Origin: an uncultured archaeon
GTDB lineage: Archaea > Halobacteriota > Methanosarcinia > Methanosarcinales > Methanoperedenaceae
DNA: 60,112 nt
Direction: 5' to 3'
Assembly (NCBI GenBank): GCA_902386255.1
Contig: CABMII010000013.1
Location: forward strand, 1 to 60,112
The position numbers and the translations under genes were made by a program. Position 1 is the first letter of the stretch. Every line of letters starts with the position of its first letter. The notes under the pieces are model-generated. The model was not told the origin of the DNA, did not search any database, and saw only the letters and a list, made by a program, of their open reading frames with translations. This document shows positions 28,306 through 41,104 of the stretch, in pieces.

Positions 28306-30213
28306 CTACAAAATCCTAACAAGGTGTAAATAATCAGGAAGCAGATACATATACACATATGTTATCGTCAACATAACAAAAAGTACAGCCAGAGATAAAG
28401 TCACCTTCAATGATTGAATATAACTATTTTCAGGGTCTGATTTAATAAATTTGGTTGCGATTCGCAGAATTGTTAAGATCCCGCTGATAACCAGTACAAC
28501 AACCGTCACAAGGAACGTAATCGCCTGGCCAAACCATAGCTCATAATGAGATGGAGGCAGGTTTATACCTGAAATAATTCCCAAAACGGCTGACAGAGCT
28601 ATAGGATAAGCAAAACCTAATTTCTCGTTATGCCTCGATGCAGCTAAAATAGCGATTGGAATAACTGCAAGATTTGGTAACATCCCTATAGTAAAGCTTA
28701 AAATAATGCTGGAATTCAAATTCACTATATATTGTATCGATGAATCATACAACAACATTAGTGATAGAGAGGCAAAAATCACAGAATATGGATAGTATCT
28801 CTTCATATAAGTTGTAATAAATATAAAAACCATAATCGCAGCAACCACTGAAATAGTTACGGCAGGCGGATAGCTGGAATTCCCAACTGAAATTACATTC
28901 TGGCTTATAAGCAGAATCGTAATAAGAGATATTACTGTAAGTATGATAGTAAAATATATTCTTTTATTTTGGGAATATAGTGATAAACCAATCACAGCTC
29001 CCAGAATCACAATTACGATCGTCACTATCCAGCCCGGATTGCAGTAATTCAAATCAAATAGTGTCGTTATACCAGCCAATGCGAGAGAACTTGTGTCAAC
29101 AACTTTTATAAGCCATGCATCACTTTTTGGGCCGCGCCAGTTTGTAGTTCCCGCTACTATATAGCCACCATCTTTGGTTTGCCAAACAGCATGCGCCTCA
29201 TCGATGTCTTTTCTTCCGAAATCCCACTTCCATTCCTTATTGCCATTCGTATCGGTTTTGATGAGCCATGCCTGCACATCAGGTTCGAAAGTAGTTCCTG
29301 CAAGTATATAGCCACCGTCCATCGTCTGCTGGACAGCATTGGCTGAATCGCTTCCTTCTCCTAAAGTTTTTTTCCACTGTTCATTGCCGTCTTTATCTGT
29401 TTTTATGAGACAAACGGGGGAAGAGCCTGTAAGGACATAGCCGCCGTCACTGGTTTCTTGAACAAAAGATGCCGAGCCTTCAGCATCAAAAGTTTTATTC
29501 CATTTTTCGCTGCCATTTTCATCCGTTTTGACAAGCCATGCTTTCGGTGCAATAAATCCAACATTTTTAGTTTCATACGAACTTGAAACCCCACTGATAA
29601 TATAACCACCATCACGAATTAGGTAGATAGAGTTGAACCCGTCAATCCCTTCTCCACCGAATGTCCTGTTCCACAGTTCCAAGCCATTTTCATCAGTCTT
29701 AATTAACCATCCGTCACCGCTTTGCCCTTCTATTCCATTTGTGCTTTTGAAGCCTGCAAGAATATAACCACCATCGGGTGTTTGCCGGACAGATGATGCC
29801 TCATTATCACCGTTTTCACCGAACGTCCTGCTCCATTGATAGCTGCCGTATGCATCCGTTCTGGCAATCCAGACAACGCTGCCTGTTCCAATAGATTTCT
29901 TGCCTGCCAGCACATATCCCCCGTCACTGGTCTGCCGGACAAAAACGAAACCTGTTCCGTCCAAGGTACTGTTCCATAGTTCGGTTCCGTTTTCATCAGT
30001 CTTGATCAGGAACGCATTGTTTTTATTAGCTCCAAATATCCCGCCGGCAATTATGTATCCGGAATCTGAAGTCTGCTGAACAGAACCTGCCCTGTAATCT
30101 CCATCTCCTCCGAACGTCTTGATCCATAGTTCCTGTGGGACAGCACCTGCACTGCCTACAAATATGCTCAGCACAATTACTGCAATTACGACAGCATAGA
30201 CATTTTTATTCAT
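28306..30213 (-). CDS. seven-repeat protein fused to a polytopic membrane domain
   Basis: A 635-residue paralog of the two sorted repeat proteins. A signal peptide (1-24) precedes seven WNxTFGG/DGGYIIAG/WLIKTD repeats (to ~385). In place of a sorting tail there are about seven membrane helices (from NPGWIVTIVIVILGAVIGLS to the C-terminus). The start at 30213 has GAGGAG six bases upstream. It is first in the operon, directly downstream of the inverted repeat at 30338-30359. The arrangement suggests a membrane receptor or base for the other two repeat proteins (inference). Confidence 0.78.
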   Translation of the reverse strand: MNKNVYAVVIAVIVLSIFVGSAGAVPQELWIKTFGGDGDYRAGSVQQTSDSGYIIAGGIFGANKNNAFLIKTDENGTELWNSTLDGTGFVFVRQTSDGGYVLAGKKSIGTGSVVWIARTDAYGSYQWSRTFGENGDNEASSVRQTPDGGYILAGFKSTNGIEGQSGDGWLIKTDENGLELWNRTFGGEGIDGFNSIYLIRDGGYIISGVSSSYETKNVGFIAPKAWLVKTDENGSEKWNKTFDAEGSASFVQETSDGGYVLTGSSPVCLIKTDKDGNEQWKKTLGEGSDSANAVQQTMDGGYILAGTTFEPDVQAWLIKTDTNGNKEWKWDFGRKDIDEAHAVWQTKDGGYIVAGTTNWRGPKSDAWLIKVVDTSSLALAGITTLFDLNYCNPGWIVTIVIVILGAVIGLSLYSQNKRIYFTIILTVISLITILLISQNVISVGNSSYPPAVTISVVAAIMVFIFITTYMKRYYPYSVIFASLSLMLLYDSSIQYIVNLNSSIILSFTIGMLPNLAVIPIAILAASRHNEKLGFAYPIALSAVLGIISGINLPPSHYELWFGQAITFLVTVVVLVISGILTILRIATKFIKSDPENSYIQSLKVTLSLAVLFVMLTITYVYMYLLPDYLHLVRIL

Positions 30214-30337
30214 AGTTTTCTCCTCATTTTTCAAGTTAGTCTTACTCTGGACAACAAGGTTTAATATCCAACTCTCAATACATAATACTTTCTATAAATC
30301 GTCAAGTTTGTGTATTTAATAAAAAAGTACTACTAAT

Positions 30338-33919: not shown

Positions 33920-34567
33920 ATGATTATAGTCAGTGAAGACGAAGATGATAGCGACTCTAATCCGTTACTTTTTTTAAGGCAACCAGTACACGACAGCGTA
34001 CTTAATATCAACCATGACTACCGCTACCTGCGGATGGGATATTATGTATCTGCGCATGCTGAAACCTATGGAGTAGAAGTCACACCGAATTGCACAGAAA
34101 TAATGGATGCGTACAGGAACCCTCTTTTAATCGAGAAGGCAAAAAAGCACGGCCTGCGCACAAGCGGTTACAGGCTTGTAACAAAACTTAAGGGCGAGAT
34201 GGACACACCGGTAATGTTATTCGCGGTAAATCCTTTCACCAACAACTCGATGAAAGTGGTAAAGTCAAATTCAAGACTTCCCGGAATGATTAACAAAATG
34301 AGCTACGATGCACGGTTCCCGGTTTCACTGCATCCCCTGACCGGCGAAGTGCATGAGATTATACAGCTGTTCGGGGAATCAACCTGCGAAGAGACTGCTG
34401 AGTTCACAAGAAAATTCTATGAGATATTCAATATCCCGATATGTAAATTGATAGTCCAGATAGATGATAGCGGGGTTATATTAGACCATTGCGAACCGGC
34501 CACAAAAAATGAAGTGAAATGGGATATAGTTCATAATAAAGTGCATGAGATGAAACAGAGAATGTAA
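33920..34567 (+). CDS. RLAN (RimK-like ATP-grasp N-terminal) domain protein
   Basis: A 215-residue protein resembling the RLAN domain that in bacteria is fused to the N-terminus of RimK-like ATP-grasp ligases. The diagnostic part is NHDYRYLRMGYYVSAHAETYG and VTPNCTEIMDAY (about 30-65). The remainder is beta-rich and ends in a charged helix. Here it is a separate gene, six bases ahead of the ATP-grasp gene, so the two chains probably form one enzyme. The substrate is unknown; RLAN ligases are predicted to make peptide-like amide bonds. Confidence 0.72.
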   Translation: MIIVSEDEDDSDSNPLLFLRQPVHDSVLNINHDYRYLRMGYYVSAHAETYGVEVTPNCTEIMDAYRNPLLIEKAKKHGLRTSGYRLVTKLKGEMDTPVMLFAVNPFTNNSMKVVKSNSRLPGMINKMSYDARFPVSLHPLTGEVHEIIQLFGESTCEETAEFTRKFYEIFNIPICKLIVQIDDSGVILDHCEPATKNEVKWDIVHNKVHEMKQRM

Positions 34568-34573
34568 TATTCC

Positions 34574-35440
34574 ATGAAAATCGCCTGTTTTGTCGAAGCA
34601 TATAATTTCAGGGACAGTTCCGAACATAGAGCCCTTTTGAAATTCAAATCCATAGCAGAATCAATGGGGCATTCATTTGAATTCATCTTCAAGGATGATA
34701 TTTCAAAAATCCGGGATTATGATGCGCTGTTCATAAGAGCTACGACTGACCCAAGCAGCTCGGCATACATAGTTTCGCGGCTTGCAGAACAAAACGGACT
34801 TAAAGTCATTGATGACCCGCATTCGATAAGAACATGCTCGAACAAGGCAATACTCCACGACCTGTTCCTGAAAAATAATATTCCGGCGCCAAAATCCATC
34901 TTATTTTACGGGGATTATGCGGCAACGACCCTTGAAACGATATTCAAGACCCTGGGATTCCCTGTTATTATCAAAACACCATATACCCGTTTTTCATCGC
35001 ATGTCGAGAAGGCGAATAATGAAACTGAATTTATCGATCTCACAAAACATTTGCTAAGGAAAGCAAAGGTCCTGGTTCTCCAGGAATACATCCGCTCCGA
35101 TTTTGACTGGCGCGTAGGAATCCTGAGGAACGAAGTGCTGTACCTTTGCAAATACTGCATCCCAAAAGGGGGCTGGAAGGTAAAGTCAAAGATAAACGGG
35201 AGGAACGTATGGGGAGATACAATCGCCTTACCGAGGGAATCTATTGACCCGGAATTAAAAGAAATCTGCATATCACTTTCAAAATGCGTGGGCAATGGGC
35301 TCTATGGTCTTGATGTTAAAGAAATAGACAGCGGATATAAGGTCATCGAGATAAATGATAACCCAAGCATCTATGATGGATATGAGGATTCCGTGGATAC
35401 GGACATTTATGAAAAAATAATCAAAGAGCTGGTTTCATAA
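34574..35440 (+). CDS. RimK-like ATP-grasp ligase
   Basis: A 288-residue ATP-grasp enzyme. It has the preATP-grasp start, LFIRATTDPSSSAY (~51-64), IRTCSNKAILHDLFLKNNIP, the ATP-binding Lys in FPVIIKTPY (~134-142), LVLQEYIRSDFDWRVGIL (~170-187) and the metal-binding end YKVIEINDNPSIYDGYEDSV (Glu and Asn, ~255-275). Such enzymes join a carboxylate to an amine with ATP hydrolysis. Length fits the catalytic half only; the missing N-terminal half is the RLAN gene before it. Its last six bases overlap the convergent GNAT gene. Confidence 0.85.
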   Translation: MKIACFVEAYNFRDSSEHRALLKFKSIAESMGHSFEFIFKDDISKIRDYDALFIRATTDPSSSAYIVSRLAEQNGLKVIDDPHSIRTCSNKAILHDLFLKNNIPAPKSILFYGDYAATTLETIFKTLGFPVIIKTPYTRFSSHVEKANNETEFIDLTKHLLRKAKVLVLQEYIRSDFDWRVGILRNEVLYLCKYCIPKGGWKVKSKINGRNVWGDTIALPRESIDPELKEICISLSKCVGNGLYGLDVKEIDSGYKVIEINDNPSIYDGYEDSVDTDIYEKIIKELVS

Positions 35441-35905
35441 TTTCCTGAAAAGATGAAGCGCATCATCCCCGTTCTTGTAATAATTGAAAAGTTTTTTATC
35501 CACAACAAAACCCTTCGTAGCGTACAGATTCTGGGCAGGTTTGTTATTGACACCGACTTCAAGGGTTATTTTAGTAACTCCTTTTTCTTTTAGCAATCCA
35601 ATGGTTTTATCCATAAGCAAGCTCGCTATCCCCTGCCTCCTGTGCGCAGGATGCACGTTTAATGAATATATCCTTGCGTTGTGGATATTTTCCCGCAAAA
35701 GAATGAGAATTGACCCGATAACGCCACCATCCTCCGCAACAAGTACAATTGACCTGGCTCTAAGTAAAAGATACTTTAATTGTTTCCTGAAAAATCTTTC
35801 TTCCTTGAAACATATTTCTTCAAGATTCAAAAGGGCATCCAGGTCCTCCTTTTTCGCAGCCCGGATTAAGGGTTTCAAGGAACGGTCACGCGTGCCCTTA
35901 CGCAT
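35435..35905 (-). CDS. GNAT-family N-acetyltransferase
   Basis: A 156-residue acetyltransferase with the GNAT fold. It has acetyl-CoA-binding VHPAHRRQGIASLLMDK (R/Q-x-x-G-x-A, ~83-99) and the C-terminal LEVGVNNKPAQNLYATKGFV (~115-134), as in RimI-like enzymes. The acceptor amine is unknown. In bacteria, GNAT genes are recurrent neighbours of RLAN/ATP-grasp ligases, so it may act on the product of the adjacent genes. The ATG at 35905 has GGTG/AGGA upstream but overlaps DUF2111 by 31 bases; a TTG at 35878 is an alternative. Confidence 0.85.
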   Translation of the reverse strand: MRKGTRDRSLKPLIRAAKKEDLDALLNLEEICFKEERFFRKQLKYLLLRARSIVLVAEDGGVIGSILILLRENIHNARIYSLNVHPAHRRQGIASLLMDKTIGLLKEKGVTKITLEVGVNNKPAQNLYATKGFVVDKKLFNYYKNGDDALHLFRKL

Positions 35906-36282
35906 TCCTGCACCTGTTTTACAACCTCGGGATAATCGCCAAAGATATAACCCAGGTCCACAGTGCCCACCATATCAACGACACCTATCGCAGCTATGCC
36001 ATATCCTTCCTTATTCCTGATAGGTGCAACTATTACCGGAATGCCAGCGTATTTCCCGCTGGTCGGGATGATGCGTATGGTTTTATTCTCTTTTAATACG
36101 GCTTCAAGCACGGGACCGCTATAATTATTATCAAGGATTTTTCCTTTTTCAATCCTGACGCCCTTTTTATTCAGGCTCCTCATGGTCACAGGCAGTCCCA
36201 GCAGTTCATGTATCGCGAGAGCAAAAGGCGCAATATCTTCAGGACTTGAATCCGCTGAAATCTCAATTTTTTTGAAATTCAT
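35875..36282 (-). CDS. DUF2111 family protein
   Basis: A 135-residue protein of a family found in methanogens and their relatives. It is recognised by GVRIEKGKILDNNYSGPVLE, TIRIIPTSGKYAGIPVIVAP and GYGIAAIGVVDMVG (about 42-105). The fold is a roadblock- or PAS-like alpha/beta sandwich by pattern, without known activity. The ATG at 36282 with GGAG eight bases upstream is preferred over the GTG at 36291. It lies between the stress protein and the GNAT gene on the same strand. Confidence 0.75.
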   Translation of the reverse strand: MNFKKIEISADSSPEDIAPFALAIHELLGLPVTMRSLNKKGVRIEKGKILDNNYSGPVLEAVLKENKTIRIIPTSGKYAGIPVIVAPIRNKEGYGIAAIGVVDMVGTVDLGYIFGDYPEVVKQVQECVRARVTVP

Positions 36283-36312
36283 ATTTCCCACTCCATTTTA
36301 ATTTCATATTAA

Positions 36313-36711
36313 TTATCTTGCAACAAGTACTGTGCATTCAGCATTTCGCACCACGTTCTCGGCAACGCTTCCCAAAAGGACTCTTTTTATTCCTTTCCTG
36401 CCTTCTGAACCCATCACGATTGTATGAACTTTGAGGCTTTTTGACACATTCAAAATAGTTTCTGCAGGGCTTCCGAGCTTCAGGATTTTCTGGACATCCA
36501 CACCCATTTTTTTCCCGTCTTCAACCACTTCGTCAAGAACTTTTTCACCATATTTTATCAATTCATCCCGTTCGGATGTGGAAGGAACATTCACAACAAA
36601 AAGCGCCGCCATCCTGATATTATATGATTTTGTGATTTTTAATGCTGCAATTTCCGCTTTTTTAGCTGACTCAGACCCATCGGTCGCAAGAAGAACTTCA
36701 ACTTTTGCCAT
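36313..36711 (-). CDS. universal stress protein (UspA family)
   Basis: A 132-residue UspA-fold protein. It has VLLATDGSESAKKAE (6-20) and the ATP-binding signature MGSEGRKGIKRVLLGSVAEN (G-x2-G-x9-GS, ~100-119). It is shorter than the paralog at 3717-4184 and close to the minimal fold. It lies 30 bases upstream of DUF2111, probably in one transcript. Confidence 0.88.
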   Translation of the reverse strand: MAKVEVLLATDGSESAKKAEIAALKITKSYNIRMAALFVVNVPSTSERDELIKYGEKVLDEVVEDGKKMGVDVQKILKLGSPAETILNVSKSLKVHTIVMGSEGRKGIKRVLLGSVAENVVRNAECTVLVAR

Positions 36712-36720
36712 ATGTAAATT

Positions 36721-37992
36721 TTATACGTTAACCATATTAAGGATTGTGTTATCGAAAAGATAATTCGAAAAAAACCTGATTCTAAAACCTAAAATCTTTT
36801 GAAATAGGTACATTCTTTTCTGTTCATAGCCGGATACATTATGCACAGCAGGACGTTTCTTTATAACATCAACATATTGCGTTACGTTTCGATACGCTAC
36901 TCCTCTCTTTTGTTTTATCACATCTTGAAAATTCGTAAAATTTTCTTCTTTTGTCTTTTTTGACGTTGGATATGTATAAAACTCACAATCTGTAACATTT
37001 TTATCTGTGGTATATGTAAAATCCTTAGATTCAGATGGCAGGAGGGAGCCCTCATCAAATCTGCCAATTTTTGTATCATTTTCCATGGAAAAACCCTCCC
37101 ATATTCCAAATGTTCCGGGCACAGTATCCGTGTTTTCTATTGTAACGGTTACCTCTGAACCAAGAGGGGGTAATTGTACATAATTGCTGGAAATCTGAAA
37201 TACCCCATCAATCGTAACATTATTTTCAGATACGTTACTTATATGGATAATTATCATCGGAATCGTTTCTCCACCATCCAGTTTTTTCTCATAAGTGAAA
37301 TCGGTTTCTCCTTCAATTGTCCGGGTATTTATTATGTTATTGTCTAATAGAGAGATAGTGGCGCTTCTTATCAATTTATATGAATATGTGCATCCACCTC
37401 CGTTATTTAATTCATCTTCCGTTCCCTCGTAATGACCACCAGACCAACACGAACGGCTCGATACATTTTTTGGTTCTTTATCAATAGCATTTACCTGAAG
37501 TGAATATCCGACCAAAGACAAATAATCTCCCTGATTCAATATTCTTTCAGTATTGTCATTCATAAGAATATTGTATACATGACCGGATTTTAATCCTGTA
37601 TTAAATGTGGATATGTCATTTGAAAAAAGTTTTCCTTTCATATAACCGGAAAAATAAGATTGGTCCCCATACGGTATCAAATAATAACTTCCCCAATCTT
37701 TATATCTAAAATTTTCTGATAGAAATGATATATCCTTTTTACAGGTTTTCAAATAAGAAGTGTACTGTAGTTCCTCTGGAATATTTCTTACGTCTGTAAA
37801 TGATTCATTTATAGTGACATTTGTAATGACATAATCTGCAACTTGCACCACACGTGGTTCTACTATTTTATATTCTTCTTCATATTGTTCTGATTTCTGA
37901 TATGGTATGACCACATCTACCGGCATCAATAATATGAATATCAATAATATGAATATCGCCAAGGATATGATTAATAGATTATTGTTGTACAT
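36721..37992 (-). CDS. membrane-anchored protein with S-layer-like domain
   Basis: A protein of ~423 residues with an N-terminal membrane anchor (LLIISLAIFILLIFILLMPV) and an otherwise extracellular chain rich in NxT/S sites. The part GDYLSLVGYSLQVNAID, followed by a beta segment ATISLLDNNIINTRTI, resembles the Methanosarcina S-layer (DUF1608-type) domain. A second beta domain contains SEVTVTIENTDTVPGTFGIW. A basic amphipathic C-terminus follows. The start at 37992 (MYNNN) shortens the overlap with the octahaem gene. As the last gene of the cytochrome run it may link the haem proteins to the S-layer (inference). Confidence 0.6.
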   Translation of the reverse strand: MYNNNLLIISLAIFILLIFILLMPVDVVIPYQKSEQYEEEYKIVEPRVVQVADYVITNVTINESFTDVRNIPEELQYTSYLKTCKKDISFLSENFRYKDWGSYYLIPYGDQSYFSGYMKGKLFSNDISTFNTGLKSGHVYNILMNDNTERILNQGDYLSLVGYSLQVNAIDKEPKNVSSRSCWSGGHYEGTEDELNNGGGCTYSYKLIRSATISLLDNNIINTRTIEGETDFTYEKKLDGGETIPMIIIHISNVSENNVTIDGVFQISSNYVQLPPLGSEVTVTIENTDTVPGTFGIWEGFSMENDTKIGRFDEGSLLPSESKDFTYTTDKNVTDCEFYTYPTSKKTKEENFTNFQDVIKQKRGVAYRNVTQYVDVIKKRPAVHNVSGYEQKRMYLFQKILGFRIRFFSNYLFDNTILNMVNV

Positions 37993-38899
37993 TTTCATAA
38001 TCATTTCTATAGTTCTTTATTAAGGCTGCTGCTTTTTCATCATTATTGGAGTCAGGAGTAGGTGTCGGCCCTACTTTCTTTTCTGCGGTTATCTTTCCTG
38101 CAATCCCAAGTATTGTCTGATTTATATTTCGCGGAGAATGCGGATCATGGCATATGACACATTCAACCCCAGAAATATGATTCCCATTCAGCCAATCTTT
38201 ATAAGTCCCAGAATGACATTGTTTGCATAAATTGCTTGCCTGGGTAATAGGTACTTTTTGACCATTGGCCAACTCTAACGATATTTTATCTTGTGAGTGA
38301 CACATCCTGCAAGACTTGTTTTCAAATATATTATGTATTTCAAGCCTGATAGTCTCATGCCTAAAGAGGTTGTCTAAAGAACCATGGCAAAGTCCACAAT
38401 CTGTACCCTTTTTTGATTCTATATGTCCTCCTTCATGACAACGGGTGCATTCCGGTGTCCTGTCAGACCTCCAGGCATGACAACTATTACAATTATTATC
38501 ATATGTTTCTTTGTGCCTTGCCGTATATTCTGACATGCCTATAGATGGTAGTGCTTTTATATTTCCTTCGTGATAGATATGTATCTCTTTAGAGATATTA
38601 ACTAAAAATTTAATATCTTCCCTATGACATTTATAACAAGACGACGAAATATTTATCGTATCATTGGCATTAACAGGAGATTGCCCGGCAGTGTGGCATT
38701 TAGTACAATCGAGAGGCTGCCTGCCCCCTAACATCGCATTTAATTCGGCTTGTAGCTGTATATTATTATTTTTCCCGGATTCTCCAGATATGAATACACT
38801 AGCCAGAAATATGGGGATTATTATTGCGACAATTACTATGCCAGTATTTCTAATTTTCTTTGTTCCTATATTTCTGATTTGCTTTATGTAGTAATTCAT
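37979..38899 (-). CDS. octahaem c-type cytochrome, membrane anchored
   Basis: A 306-residue protein with an N-terminal membrane helix (about 19-34) and eight CxxCH haem-binding motifs: CTKCH, CYKCH, CNSCH, CTRCH, CGLCH, CRMCH, CKQCH and CVICH. The pairs with SGVECVICHDPHSP and CKQCHSGTYKDW resemble the NapC/NrfB- and doubled-CXXCH-type domains used for electron transfer outside the membrane. A Pro/Thr linker and a short charged tail close the protein. It lies 11 bases after the gene at 38911 and overlaps the next, within the cytochrome run. Confidence 0.88.
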   Translation of the reverse strand: MNYYIKQIRNIGTKKIRNTGIVIVAIIIPIFLASVFISGESGKNNNIQLQAELNAMLGGRQPLDCTKCHTAGQSPVNANDTINISSSCYKCHREDIKFLVNISKEIHIYHEGNIKALPSIGMSEYTARHKETYDNNCNSCHAWRSDRTPECTRCHEGGHIESKKGTDCGLCHGSLDNLFRHETIRLEIHNIFENKSCRMCHSQDKISLELANGQKVPITQASNLCKQCHSGTYKDWLNGNHISGVECVICHDPHSPRNINQTILGIAGKITAEKKVGPTPTPDSNNDEKAAALIKNYRNDYENVQQ

Positions 38900-38910
38900 A
38901 ATATCTACCC

Positions 38911-40116
38911 CTACCTTATCTCAAATTCTTTACTGTATTCCGCCTTTGATATTCCGGGGATAGACCTTATTTCTTTTATTATGTTCCTGTCTTTATCTTT
39001 TTTATCTCTGCTTATAAATATTATTGCTTCATCATTTCCTGCAGATATCCCAACACTCTTTGCATTATTTTTATTTATTATATCATTTACAGTATTCAGT
39101 ATGGCAGAATCAAATGGCTGAGATAGGGATATTTTTATTGTCCTGGCTTTGGATTTATCATGTTCTATCTTTAAATGTTTTGCCAGTATAACATGTCCTT
39201 TCTTTGGCTTAAATGCATATTCAAATACTGACGATATCATCATCAAGAGAAATAGTCCCACAAATATCGTACGGTCTTTTAGAAATTGAGATATGTTATC
39301 TATTTCATTTTGTGCTGATGGGATAATATCGAATGAAAAGTTCGTTCCCGCCGGACTATGTGGATTGTGGCAATCAATACACTTTTGTTTTTCTATTCCA
39401 TTTTGAATTACATAATGTGAGGGATCTTTATACTCTTTTGAATGACAATTGCCGCACATCTGCGAACTAGCCGTTCCATCATACATTGCAAGTTCTTTAA
39501 ATTTCAGATTGGTTCCTGCATGGCAAGTATCACATCTAATCATCCAGTTATGAGAACCTTTTTTGAATGTATCTCTCTCTTCGTTATGCCCATTAGGCTG
39601 GAGTAAACCTCCATGGCAATTCTGGCAATTTCTTGATGTATTAATATCAATTATACCGCTGTGCCCGCCATGACAGCTTTTACATGCAAGGACACCGTGG
39701 CATGATTCACAACCTCTTGTGCCCATTTTCCCTGTATGTTCTTTATGAATTGTGTTTGTTCCCTGATCATTGTATCTTGAAGGTTCTCCGCTTGGGAGTG
39801 CATGATCAGAGGCATGACATCGGGCACACCATTCTCTATTAACCCCTGAATATGTTGTATTCGAATTATGACAATTGGAACAACTCTGCTTGAAAGATGT
39901 ATCATTAAGAAGAGTCTCATTAGCAGATGTATAATTAACTATGGAAGAAATATCTTCTGTAATAGAATCATTCTTTATATTTTCACTATTTCTTCCAAGG
40001 TATCCTGAGAAATAAGATGTATCAAAAACCACTATCATTAACAGGACAATTACCAAATTTTTATATATGGCAAGTCTTGCAAGTTTTTGTCGTAACATAA
40101 TCCATTTCGTGGGCAT
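38911..40116 (-). CDS. octahaem c-type cytochrome with a cytoplasmic alpha/beta domain
   Basis: A protein of ~401 residues with an N-terminal membrane helix and eight CxxCH motifs (CSNCH, CARCH, CESCH, CKSCH, CQNCH, CDTCH, CGNCH, CIDCH). A second membrane helix (TIFVGLFLLMMISSVFEYAF) precedes ~90 residues predicted to lie in the cytoplasm (RTIKISLSQPFDSAILNTVN through IPGISKAEYSKEF), which resemble a ferredoxin-like ACT/NIL-type fold. A haem domain outside and a possible ligand domain inside suggest redox sensing or docking (inference). The start is chosen at 40116, where AGGT precedes the ATG; 40140 and 40098 are alternatives. It overlaps the upstream cytochrome gene. Confidence 0.82.
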   Translation of the reverse strand: MPTKWIMLRQKLARLAIYKNLVIVLLMIVVFDTSYFSGYLGRNSENIKNDSITEDISSIVNYTSANETLLNDTSFKQSCSNCHNSNTTYSGVNREWCARCHASDHALPSGEPSRYNDQGTNTIHKEHTGKMGTRGCESCHGVLACKSCHGGHSGIIDINTSRNCQNCHGGLLQPNGHNEERDTFKKGSHNWMIRCDTCHAGTNLKFKELAMYDGTASSQMCGNCHSKEYKDPSHYVIQNGIEKQKCIDCHNPHSPAGTNFSFDIIPSAQNEIDNISQFLKDRTIFVGLFLLMMISSVFEYAFKPKKGHVILAKHLKIEHDKSKARTIKISLSQPFDSAILNTVNDIINKNNAKSVGISAGNDEAIIFISRDKKDKDRNIIKEIRSIPGISKAEYSKEFEIR

Positions 40117-41104
40117 AATACCTACCATATTTAAGTCCAAACATCTGTCCCATGTATGTTATTCTGTCATTTACATGGCACATCGCAGCCGGGGTGCCAC
40201 AAGTATATCCGGAATTATTTCCGATATAGTCTTCCATTAATTCATTTGATGATATTGATACAACAGACGCATCACTGAAATCCTGTATTACCCTATCCAT
40301 CCTTTTTACAGTATAATTTCCCTGGGTATGAAATAAATTCAAATATGAGTATTGTAAAGGTAAGTCTGCAGGCAATGAATAATAGTTGATTGATGAACCA
40401 TCGGATGCATTTATTATCACCATAGGGTAATTATCTACATATGTATATATTAATGCAGATTGCCAGTCGCCGCTCAGGCTTATATATAGTTTAAAATAGT
40501 CTGGATAAACATTCTGCCTTGTGAATGTAAGGGCCTGGTTCTTATAAAGGCTCTGCATAACATTTGTTGACATATTACCCGGATCTTGCTGCCCGGAAAA
40601 GTTCATTAATTGTATCGTTGCATCAACAGCAACTGAAGCATTTTCTGAATATACATCCCACACTCCAATAGTTACATTAATAGTTTCATTCGCTGTGCCG
40701 TTGGTAAGATTTGTTTCCCAGTCAGGATTCCAGAATACAATCCCATTGATTGCCAAAGAATTGTTACCGGATATGTTGTAAATATAAGGATCTATCATAC
40801 CAAATGACTTTCTTCTGCCATTATGGCATGATAGGCACACACCATTAATATCGGCTGACTGAGCCATATTAAAATAATAGTCAATTGTCATTGACTGCTT
40901 ATTGCCCACATTCACAGCATGAGCCCCTATATGACGGCTTTCATTAAGGTCTGTTAAAGATTGGATATGGCAGGCTGTACAATTTGATTCTCTAACTATC
41001 GCGTGCGTATTGCTGAACCTTCCAATCGAGGCGACAGTCACCATTACATAGAGAATCAGGATGCATAAGACTATCGATAATACAATCTTTAATCGCTTTA
41101 ACAT
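40061..41104 (-). CDS. c-type cytochrome, shortened paralog of the 41946 and 44865 proteins
   Basis: A 347-residue exported cytochrome. After the signal anchor (8-29) comes FSNTHAIVRESNCTACH, the same entry motif as in the two paralogs. It has three CxxCH (CTACH, CLSCH, CKTCH) and one unusual CGTPAAMCH (C-x6-CH) at the place where the paralogs have C-x7-CH. A large beta domain rich in NxT/S lies in the middle. The chain stops one residue after the last CKTCH, whereas the paralogs continue for about 55-70 residues to another haem motif, so one haem is missing. Confidence 0.82.
   Translation of the reverse strand: MLKRLKIVLSIVLCILILYVMVTVASIGRFSNTHAIVRESNCTACHIQSLTDLNESRHIGAHAVNVGNKQSMTIDYYFNMAQSADINGVCLSCHNGRRKSFGMIDPYIYNISGNNSLAINGIVFWNPDWETNLTNGTANETINVTIGVWDVYSENASVAVDATIQLMNFSGQQDPGNMSTNVMQSLYKNQALTFTRQNVYPDYFKLYISLSGDWQSALIYTYVDNYPMVIINASDGSSINYYSLPADLPLQYSYLNLFHTQGNYTVKRMDRVIQDFSDASVVSISSNELMEDYIGNNSGYTCGTPAAMCHVNDRITYMGQMFGLKYGRYYAHEMDYVTTKTCKTCHI

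Follow-up and report, generated by a model that had tools for sequence, protein, structure and literature searches.

What might be made by a cluster in which an RLAN protein, a RimK-like ATP-grasp ligase and a GNAT N-acetyltransferase are encoded side by side in an uncultured, methane-oxidising archaeon of the Methanoperedenaceae? RLAN stands in Pfam as an uncharacterised alpha+beta domain, and a literature search found no paper on the function of RLAN or of its partners. The window analysed here is the whole stretch of 60,112 nucleotides, and an earlier, sequence-only reading of it had picked out an RLAN gene, an ATP-grasp gene and a convergent GNAT gene as a possible system for a peptide-like metabolite. 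All three ORFs lie where that reading had placed them and each has a Pfam match; the 215-residue protein it had likened to RLAN scores more than twice the PF14401 cut-off. The genes concerned, with the two that follow them, are:

33920..34567, plus strand: RLAN protein, 215 residues (PF14401, E 2.9e-15, 56.6 bits against a cut-off of 25)
34574..35440, plus strand: RimK-like ATP-grasp ligase, 288 residues (PF08443, E 4.8e-14, 52.8 bits against 21)
35435..35905, minus strand: GNAT N-acetyltransferase, 156 residues, convergent (PF00583, E 5.2e-19)
35875..36291, minus strand: DUF2111 protein (PF09884, E 4e-36), overlapping the start of the GNAT gene by 31 bases
36313..36711, minus strand: universal stress protein, Usp (PF00582, E 1e-25)

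Six bases separate the RLAN and ligase genes, and the ligase and GNAT genes converge with a six-base overlap of their 3' ends. RLAN is present as a single copy in the window's genome. The DUF2111 and Usp genes had been suspected of being passengers, and both probably are: a DUF2111 gene adjoins GNAT in most Methanoperedens loci and not in other families, a pattern that fits this description, and Usp is found near about half of the Methanoperedens loci examined. Elsewhere in the window, three adjoining minus-strand ORFs at 37979-41104 are rich in CxxCH haem-binding motifs and are multihaem cytochrome-like. A 642-residue ORF at 28306-30234, also on the minus strand, has repeated units of the ‘QTSDGGYVLAG’ type and hydrophobic C-terminal stretches, as judged by eye, and is possibly a surface protein.

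Conservation of the RLAN and ATP-grasp genes as a pair in relatives, on which the sequence-only reading depended, was borne out by a gene-neighbourhood survey of the genus and of other archaeal families, to a degree that chance would not produce. Within the window's genus, Candidatus Methanoperedens, RLAN occurs in 30 of 31 genomes, the one that lacks it being 63% complete, and the identity of the pair is about 75-96%; a search of 29 genomes from elsewhere in the order found no RLAN. In most Methanoperedens loci the GNAT and DUF2111 genes are convergent to the pair, and the genes upstream of RLAN vary. Across the phylum, 48 of the 393 genomes searched have RLAN, among them members of at least four other families in which it is a separate ORF beside an ATP-grasp gene. 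The two chains occur together in at least five archaeal lineages, always as separate chains in the families surveyed, and RLAN adjoins a RimK-like ATP-grasp gene in the window and across the locus surveys.

The distribution extends well into the bacteria. When an alignment of the ligase was used to scan 84,980 species, at least 585 relatives came up, the best 80 of which were retained for study. The archaea among these 80 are Methanothrix, Methanoregula, Methanolinea, Bathyarchaeota, Methanomassiliicoccales and other Thermoplasmata, and a Woesearchaeote; the bacteria among them include Pseudomonadota, Bacteroidota, Planctomycetota, Calditrichota, Zixibacteria, Deinococcota and others. In the ligase tree the loci of family f6 fall among those of Methanothrix; families f14 and f9 may be Methanocella-like and Archaeoglobus-like, respectively. 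A protein search found no plasmid-borne RLAN close to that of the window, and a plasmid search with the ligase gave relatives at 20-39% identity, the best among them being fused bacterial proteins. PADLOC gave no match to a defence system.

The catalytic chain, on the evidence of its sequence, is a complete enzyme. It had been described as a catalytic half; its length, alignment and fold matches instead give it a pre-ATP-grasp region of its own followed by a whole ATP-grasp domain, so that the 288-residue protein is a full-length ligase of the RimK/LysX type with every catalytic residue invariant. The residues K91, K134, Q170, D178-W179-R180, D247, K249, E259, N261 and D262-N263-P264 do not vary among 28 two-chain ligases, and those for ATP and Mg (K134, Q170, D247, E259 and N261) are intact in the window's protein. 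ArgX and LysX are its best fold matches and also its nearest solved relatives by sequence. It falls under every equivalog cut-off all the same (LysX/ArgX, 78 bits vs 276; MptN, 70 vs 350; CofF, 59 vs 300), and neither it nor its partners correspond to any NCBIfam equivalog. A role as a methanogenic cofactor enzyme was considered and rejected, given these MptN and CofF scores and because the module was not found in the other genera of the order covered by the search.

RLAN itself is probably a dead paralogue of its neighbour, as the following comparisons of a predicted structure and of profiles suggest. A model built from an alignment of RLAN proteins only, with ligase sequences excluded, is confident (pLDDT 91.9, pTM 0.88), and in a Foldseek search with this predicted model the 50 top PDB matches are all ATP-grasp proteins (prob 1.00, E 1.1e-8 to 3.5e-7), and the TM-scores, normalised to RLAN length, are 0.50-0.66. 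They include ArgX, LysX, RimK, D-Ala-D-Ala ligase, L-amino-acid ligase, synapsin, GAR synthetase and PsnB. When the profile of the split RLANs is compared with that of the neighbouring ligases, the two are collinear over 154 columns (E 1.9e-4), and residues 25-150 of RLAN match the ligase profile with an E of 3.8e-5. The score of 36.9 exceeds the maximum of 28.8 in 60 column and block shuffles, and four unrelated families used as a control gave scores of 12.7-14.6 (E 0.28-0.52). With only modest probabilities from hhalign (48% and 71%), the case for RLAN as an ATP-grasp protein leans on fold and profile jointly.

The loss of activity is suggested by what stands at the catalytic positions. The position of the ligase's invariant K134 is taken in RLAN by A, P or G. 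No conserved acid or asparagine is found in RLAN at the equivalents of D247, E259 and N261, where the region is variable or hydrophobic; the register of this C-terminal part was set by matching helices and strands, since that part alone gives no significant profile match to the ligase (E 0.13). RLAN has near-invariant residues of its own (Y34, Y41, E48, P56, D63, P68, N104, F106 and P173) and thus is constrained for some different role. N104 and F106 belong to an ‘NPF’ motif.

How the two chains sit together was approached through an accident of the window: the TAA stop of RLAN and the start of the ligase lie in one frame, so that a 506-residue read-through can be used as a stand-in for the complex. 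In this model, a modelling device whose alignment included fused bacterial proteins, both domains are confident (pLDDT 93.2), and the pTM of 0.67 does not fix their arrangement. The frame and length of the gap differ between species, from -32 to +35 bases and in all three frames across the survey, with one outlier of 631 bases where the choice of ORF is unsure. This variation led us to reject the idea that the two-chain form arose from an error in sequencing or from breakage of a fused gene, as did the close association of that form with a particular kind of RLAN.

The association concerns length. Split RLANs have about 50 residues without counterpart in the fused bacterial RLANs, and if RLANs are classed by the number of residues that separate the positions corresponding to P56 and F151, the median is 94 in split forms and 42 in fused ones. 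The long class occurs in 70 of 72 split loci and the short class in all 52 fused loci; in the two split exceptions, L150 and L093, the RLAN reading frames are shortened. The archaeal form is thus better seen as an old separate state than as the product of a recent break in a fusion. Split and fused states need one change on an unrooted tree of 94 ligases, and the split form is also present in bacteria of the Calditrichota (L119), Zixibacteria (L120), Planctomycetota (L123) and Trueperaceae (L139 and L142). The two-chain version, put down earlier as an archaeal one, is on this comparison of sequences one of two deeply separated forms of the family, with a few bacteria on its side. In two archaeal loci (L093 7997-9220 and L118 6177-7797) RLAN or ligase frames look interrupted or shortened, which could reflect errors or decay.

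The third gene is where the loci differ most informatively. In the 124 loci in which a partner was counted if it lay within 3.5 kb of the ligase, 57 have a GNAT, 51 have a glutamate-cysteine-ligase-like GCS2 protein (PF04107), 16 have neither and none has both. Since the loci are related, the number of changes in partner type on the ligase tree, at least six, is a better count than the raw tally. The link to GNAT drawn by the sequence-only reading holds to the extent that GNAT-RLAN-ATP-grasp single chains exist, in Cohaesibacter and Maribellus (L163 5744-7777, 677 residues; L183 5948-7906, 652 residues), but GNAT is not a constant part of the system, because roughly half the loci have a GCS2 ligase in its place. 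These GCS2 proteins fall far short of the NCBIfam cut-offs for glutamate-cysteine ligase. Among the fused bacterial genes, that of Mesorhizobium is of the GNAT type and that of Thiobacillus thioparus of the GCS2 type.

Other genes follow the type of partner. A CxxCxxCC protein (PF03692) accompanies GCS2 in 29 loci and GNAT in 0 of 57, and an N-formylglutamate amidohydrolase-like gene is present in 13 GCS2 loci and in no GNAT locus. In archaea the CxxCxxCC protein is kept beside GCS2, as at L122 8054-8554. In bacterial GCS2 loci such as L140 (9128-9844) the amidohydrolase-like gene comes after GCS2, and its product is possibly a hydrolase of the same compound. Bacterial partner GNATs are often fused to a papain-like DUF3335 peptidase, a domain that is absent from the 156-residue GNAT of the window and from the nine neighbouring proteins scanned. 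In bacteria each type of partner therefore comes with a hydrolase of its own. The exclusion of one partner by the other applies to loci. It is not claimed strictly at the level of genomes, since the GNAT of one GCS2-type genome groups with those of Methanoperedens; no GCS2 is present in the genomes of family f14, two of which have a well-scoring unlinked GNAT, and in family f9 two genomes carry an unlinked GCS2.

The ligase seems indifferent to this exchange. Its active-site residues are the same whichever partner is present, and no ligase residue tracks partner type clearly above a shuffled control (best value 0.42; control mean 0.25, maximum 0.59). The constancy of the active site fits a single ligase reaction served by two capping routes, as far as sequences can tell. 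We lean, by a little, towards a scheme with two amide-forming steps, in which one amide of a small, N-capped, peptide-like product is made by the active/dead ATP-grasp pair and the second by GNAT or GCS2, whichever the locus has. The pair, RLAN with the ATP-grasp protein, would be a two-subunit amide ligase. Its ATP-grasp chain would spend ATP on turning a carboxylate into an acyl-phosphate, which then forms an amide with an amine, and the amide-forming role predicted earlier is kept on this footing, as what is expected of the ATP-grasp family. The RLAN pseudoenzyme, a subunit whose fold comes from a model, may hold, shape or regulate the active one. In Methanoperedens and many bacteria the other amide would arise when GNAT acylates an amine from acyl-CoA; elsewhere GCS2, an ATP-dependent ligase, would cap the amine in the manner of the first enzyme of glutathione synthesis. 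The product is most likely to be a small N-capped di- or tripeptide-like metabolite, built by the logic of N-acetylglutaminylglutamine amide or glutathione.

The same enzymes could instead act on a protein. GCS2 enzymes act on small molecules, and RimK adds amino acids to the end of ribosomal protein S6. RimK polyglutamylates RpsF and a peptidase reverses this (PMC12239564). The module might similarly comprise a RimK-like ligase that adds amino acids to a protein end and a RimI-like GNAT that acetylates a protein terminus, with the papain-like partner of the bacterial loci copying the reversal by a peptidase. The very strong conservation of the locus within Methanoperedens would suit such a function, as would the matches to the RimK family (82 bits) and to RimI (74 bits), each of which is nevertheless under its cut-off. 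We consider this unlikely, since the enzymes that stand in for GNAT in about half of the loci are of a small-molecule type, and a conserved candidate target gene beside the pair was not found across families.

A somewhat smaller chance attaches to the possibility that the GNAT of Methanoperedens is an unrelated neighbour, RLAN and the ATP-grasp protein acting alone or with an unlinked partner. The GNAT gene of the window is convergent and so is not co-transcribed with the pair, and in most species it is less conserved than the pair is. In a small tree, moreover, the Methanoperedens GNATs share a group (support 93) with the unlinked GNATs found in two genomes of family f14 and in one of family f6, so that the former may be a separate recruitment. 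However, a partner-GNAT profile made from 21 sequences of other lineages, with Methanoperedens left out, ranks the window's GNAT first in its genome, at 145 bits against 91 for the next, and a GNAT lies beside the pair in 21 of the 22 Methanoperedens loci surveyed.

The single exception, genome G030, also speaks against a chance neighbour, since a GCS2 gene occupies the place of GNAT. It lies between the ligase and DUF2111 genes (L050 10811-11935, minus strand), the position of GNAT in the sister species, and its product is 54-61% identical to the GCS2 proteins of Methanomicrobiales. GCS2 is otherwise nearly absent from Methanoperedens, and the G030 ligase lies inside the Methanoperedens clade of the ligase tree. 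The best match to the partner-GNAT profile in this genome, 95 bits, is at the level of the unlinked paralogue, against the 145 bits of the window's genome. The GCS2 in the GNAT position is probably, on these sequence comparisons, the result of a horizontal gene swap, and this replacement of GNAT by GCS2 in one species provides a natural experiment.

Carrier chemistry of the LysX/ArgX-LysW kind, in which the ligase would load amino acids onto a small carrier protein in amino-acid synthesis, is improbable: ArgX and LysX are the top structural matches of both chains and archaeal GCS2 loci do have the CxxCxxCC protein, but that protein is missing from all GNAT loci, clustering of ORFs of at least 70 residues found no conserved LysW-like small protein beside the pair, and the LysX equivalog score is far below its cut-off.

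If the two-step scheme for a small metabolite is followed further, the reading of RLAN as a dead paralogue, the occurrence of the active/dead pair in both archaea and bacteria and the mutually exclusive, unrelated partners GNAT and GCS2 could be combined into a broader proposal, that of one widespread, undiscovered N-capped peptide-like metabolite, which we put forward tentatively, at somewhat less than even chances. Alternation of GNAT and GCS2 in microbes so far apart points to an amide-linked metabolite that they have in common and that carries one cap or the other; it could instead reflect two different products. In either event, the alternation shows which genes belong together for study. 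A dead ATP-grasp domain would also have a testable role as an obligate pseudoenzyme subunit. What may be new in this account is the interpretation of RLAN as a dead paralogue, together with the alternation of partners.

Among characterised systems, LysX/ArgX and RimK are the closest solved relatives of the catalytic chain in sequence and fold and are also the nearest folds to RLAN; the system described here differs in missing all the equivalog cut-offs, in having no LysW-like neighbour that we could find and in its constant RLAN companion. N-acetylglutaminylglutamine synthetase, Ngg (TIGR03103), follows a similar logic, in which one amino acid is acetylated and joined by an amide to a second, and to our knowledge that system has no RLAN. 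Ngg acetylates one glutamine and joins it to another, and a peptidase gene is nearby (PMC8070244). The window's GNAT matches this family weakly (E 0.0018; 16.9 bits vs 569), and its ligase has no match at E 0.01. Glutathione synthesis proceeds by a GCS2 enzyme and then an ATP-grasp ligase. This GshA-like step followed by an ATP-grasp step shares its two-step ligase logic with the GCS2 version, although the ligase here is RimK/LysX-like and not GshB, and Methanoperedens mostly lacks GCS2.

The nearest counterpart is the bacterial fused RLAN-ATP-grasp protein (PF14401 and PF08443). Iyer et al. are said to have predicted the bacterial RLAN/ATP-grasp/GNAT/peptidase neighbourhoods in 2009, and may also have listed GCS2 neighbourhoods. 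The fusion of DUF3335 to GNAT has been noted since, with Iyer et al. 2009 cited for it (PMC10318531). The bacterial system shares with Methanoperedens the same two families and, by profile, the same GNAT family. In the bacterial version, GNAT and peptidase (DUF3335, PF11814) are fused next to the ligase, whereas the GNAT of Methanoperedens has no peptidase domain. RLAN and ligase, which are one chain in the bacterial system, are in Methanoperedens two chains, with an RLAN longer by about 50 residues and a GNAT gene that converges on the pair.
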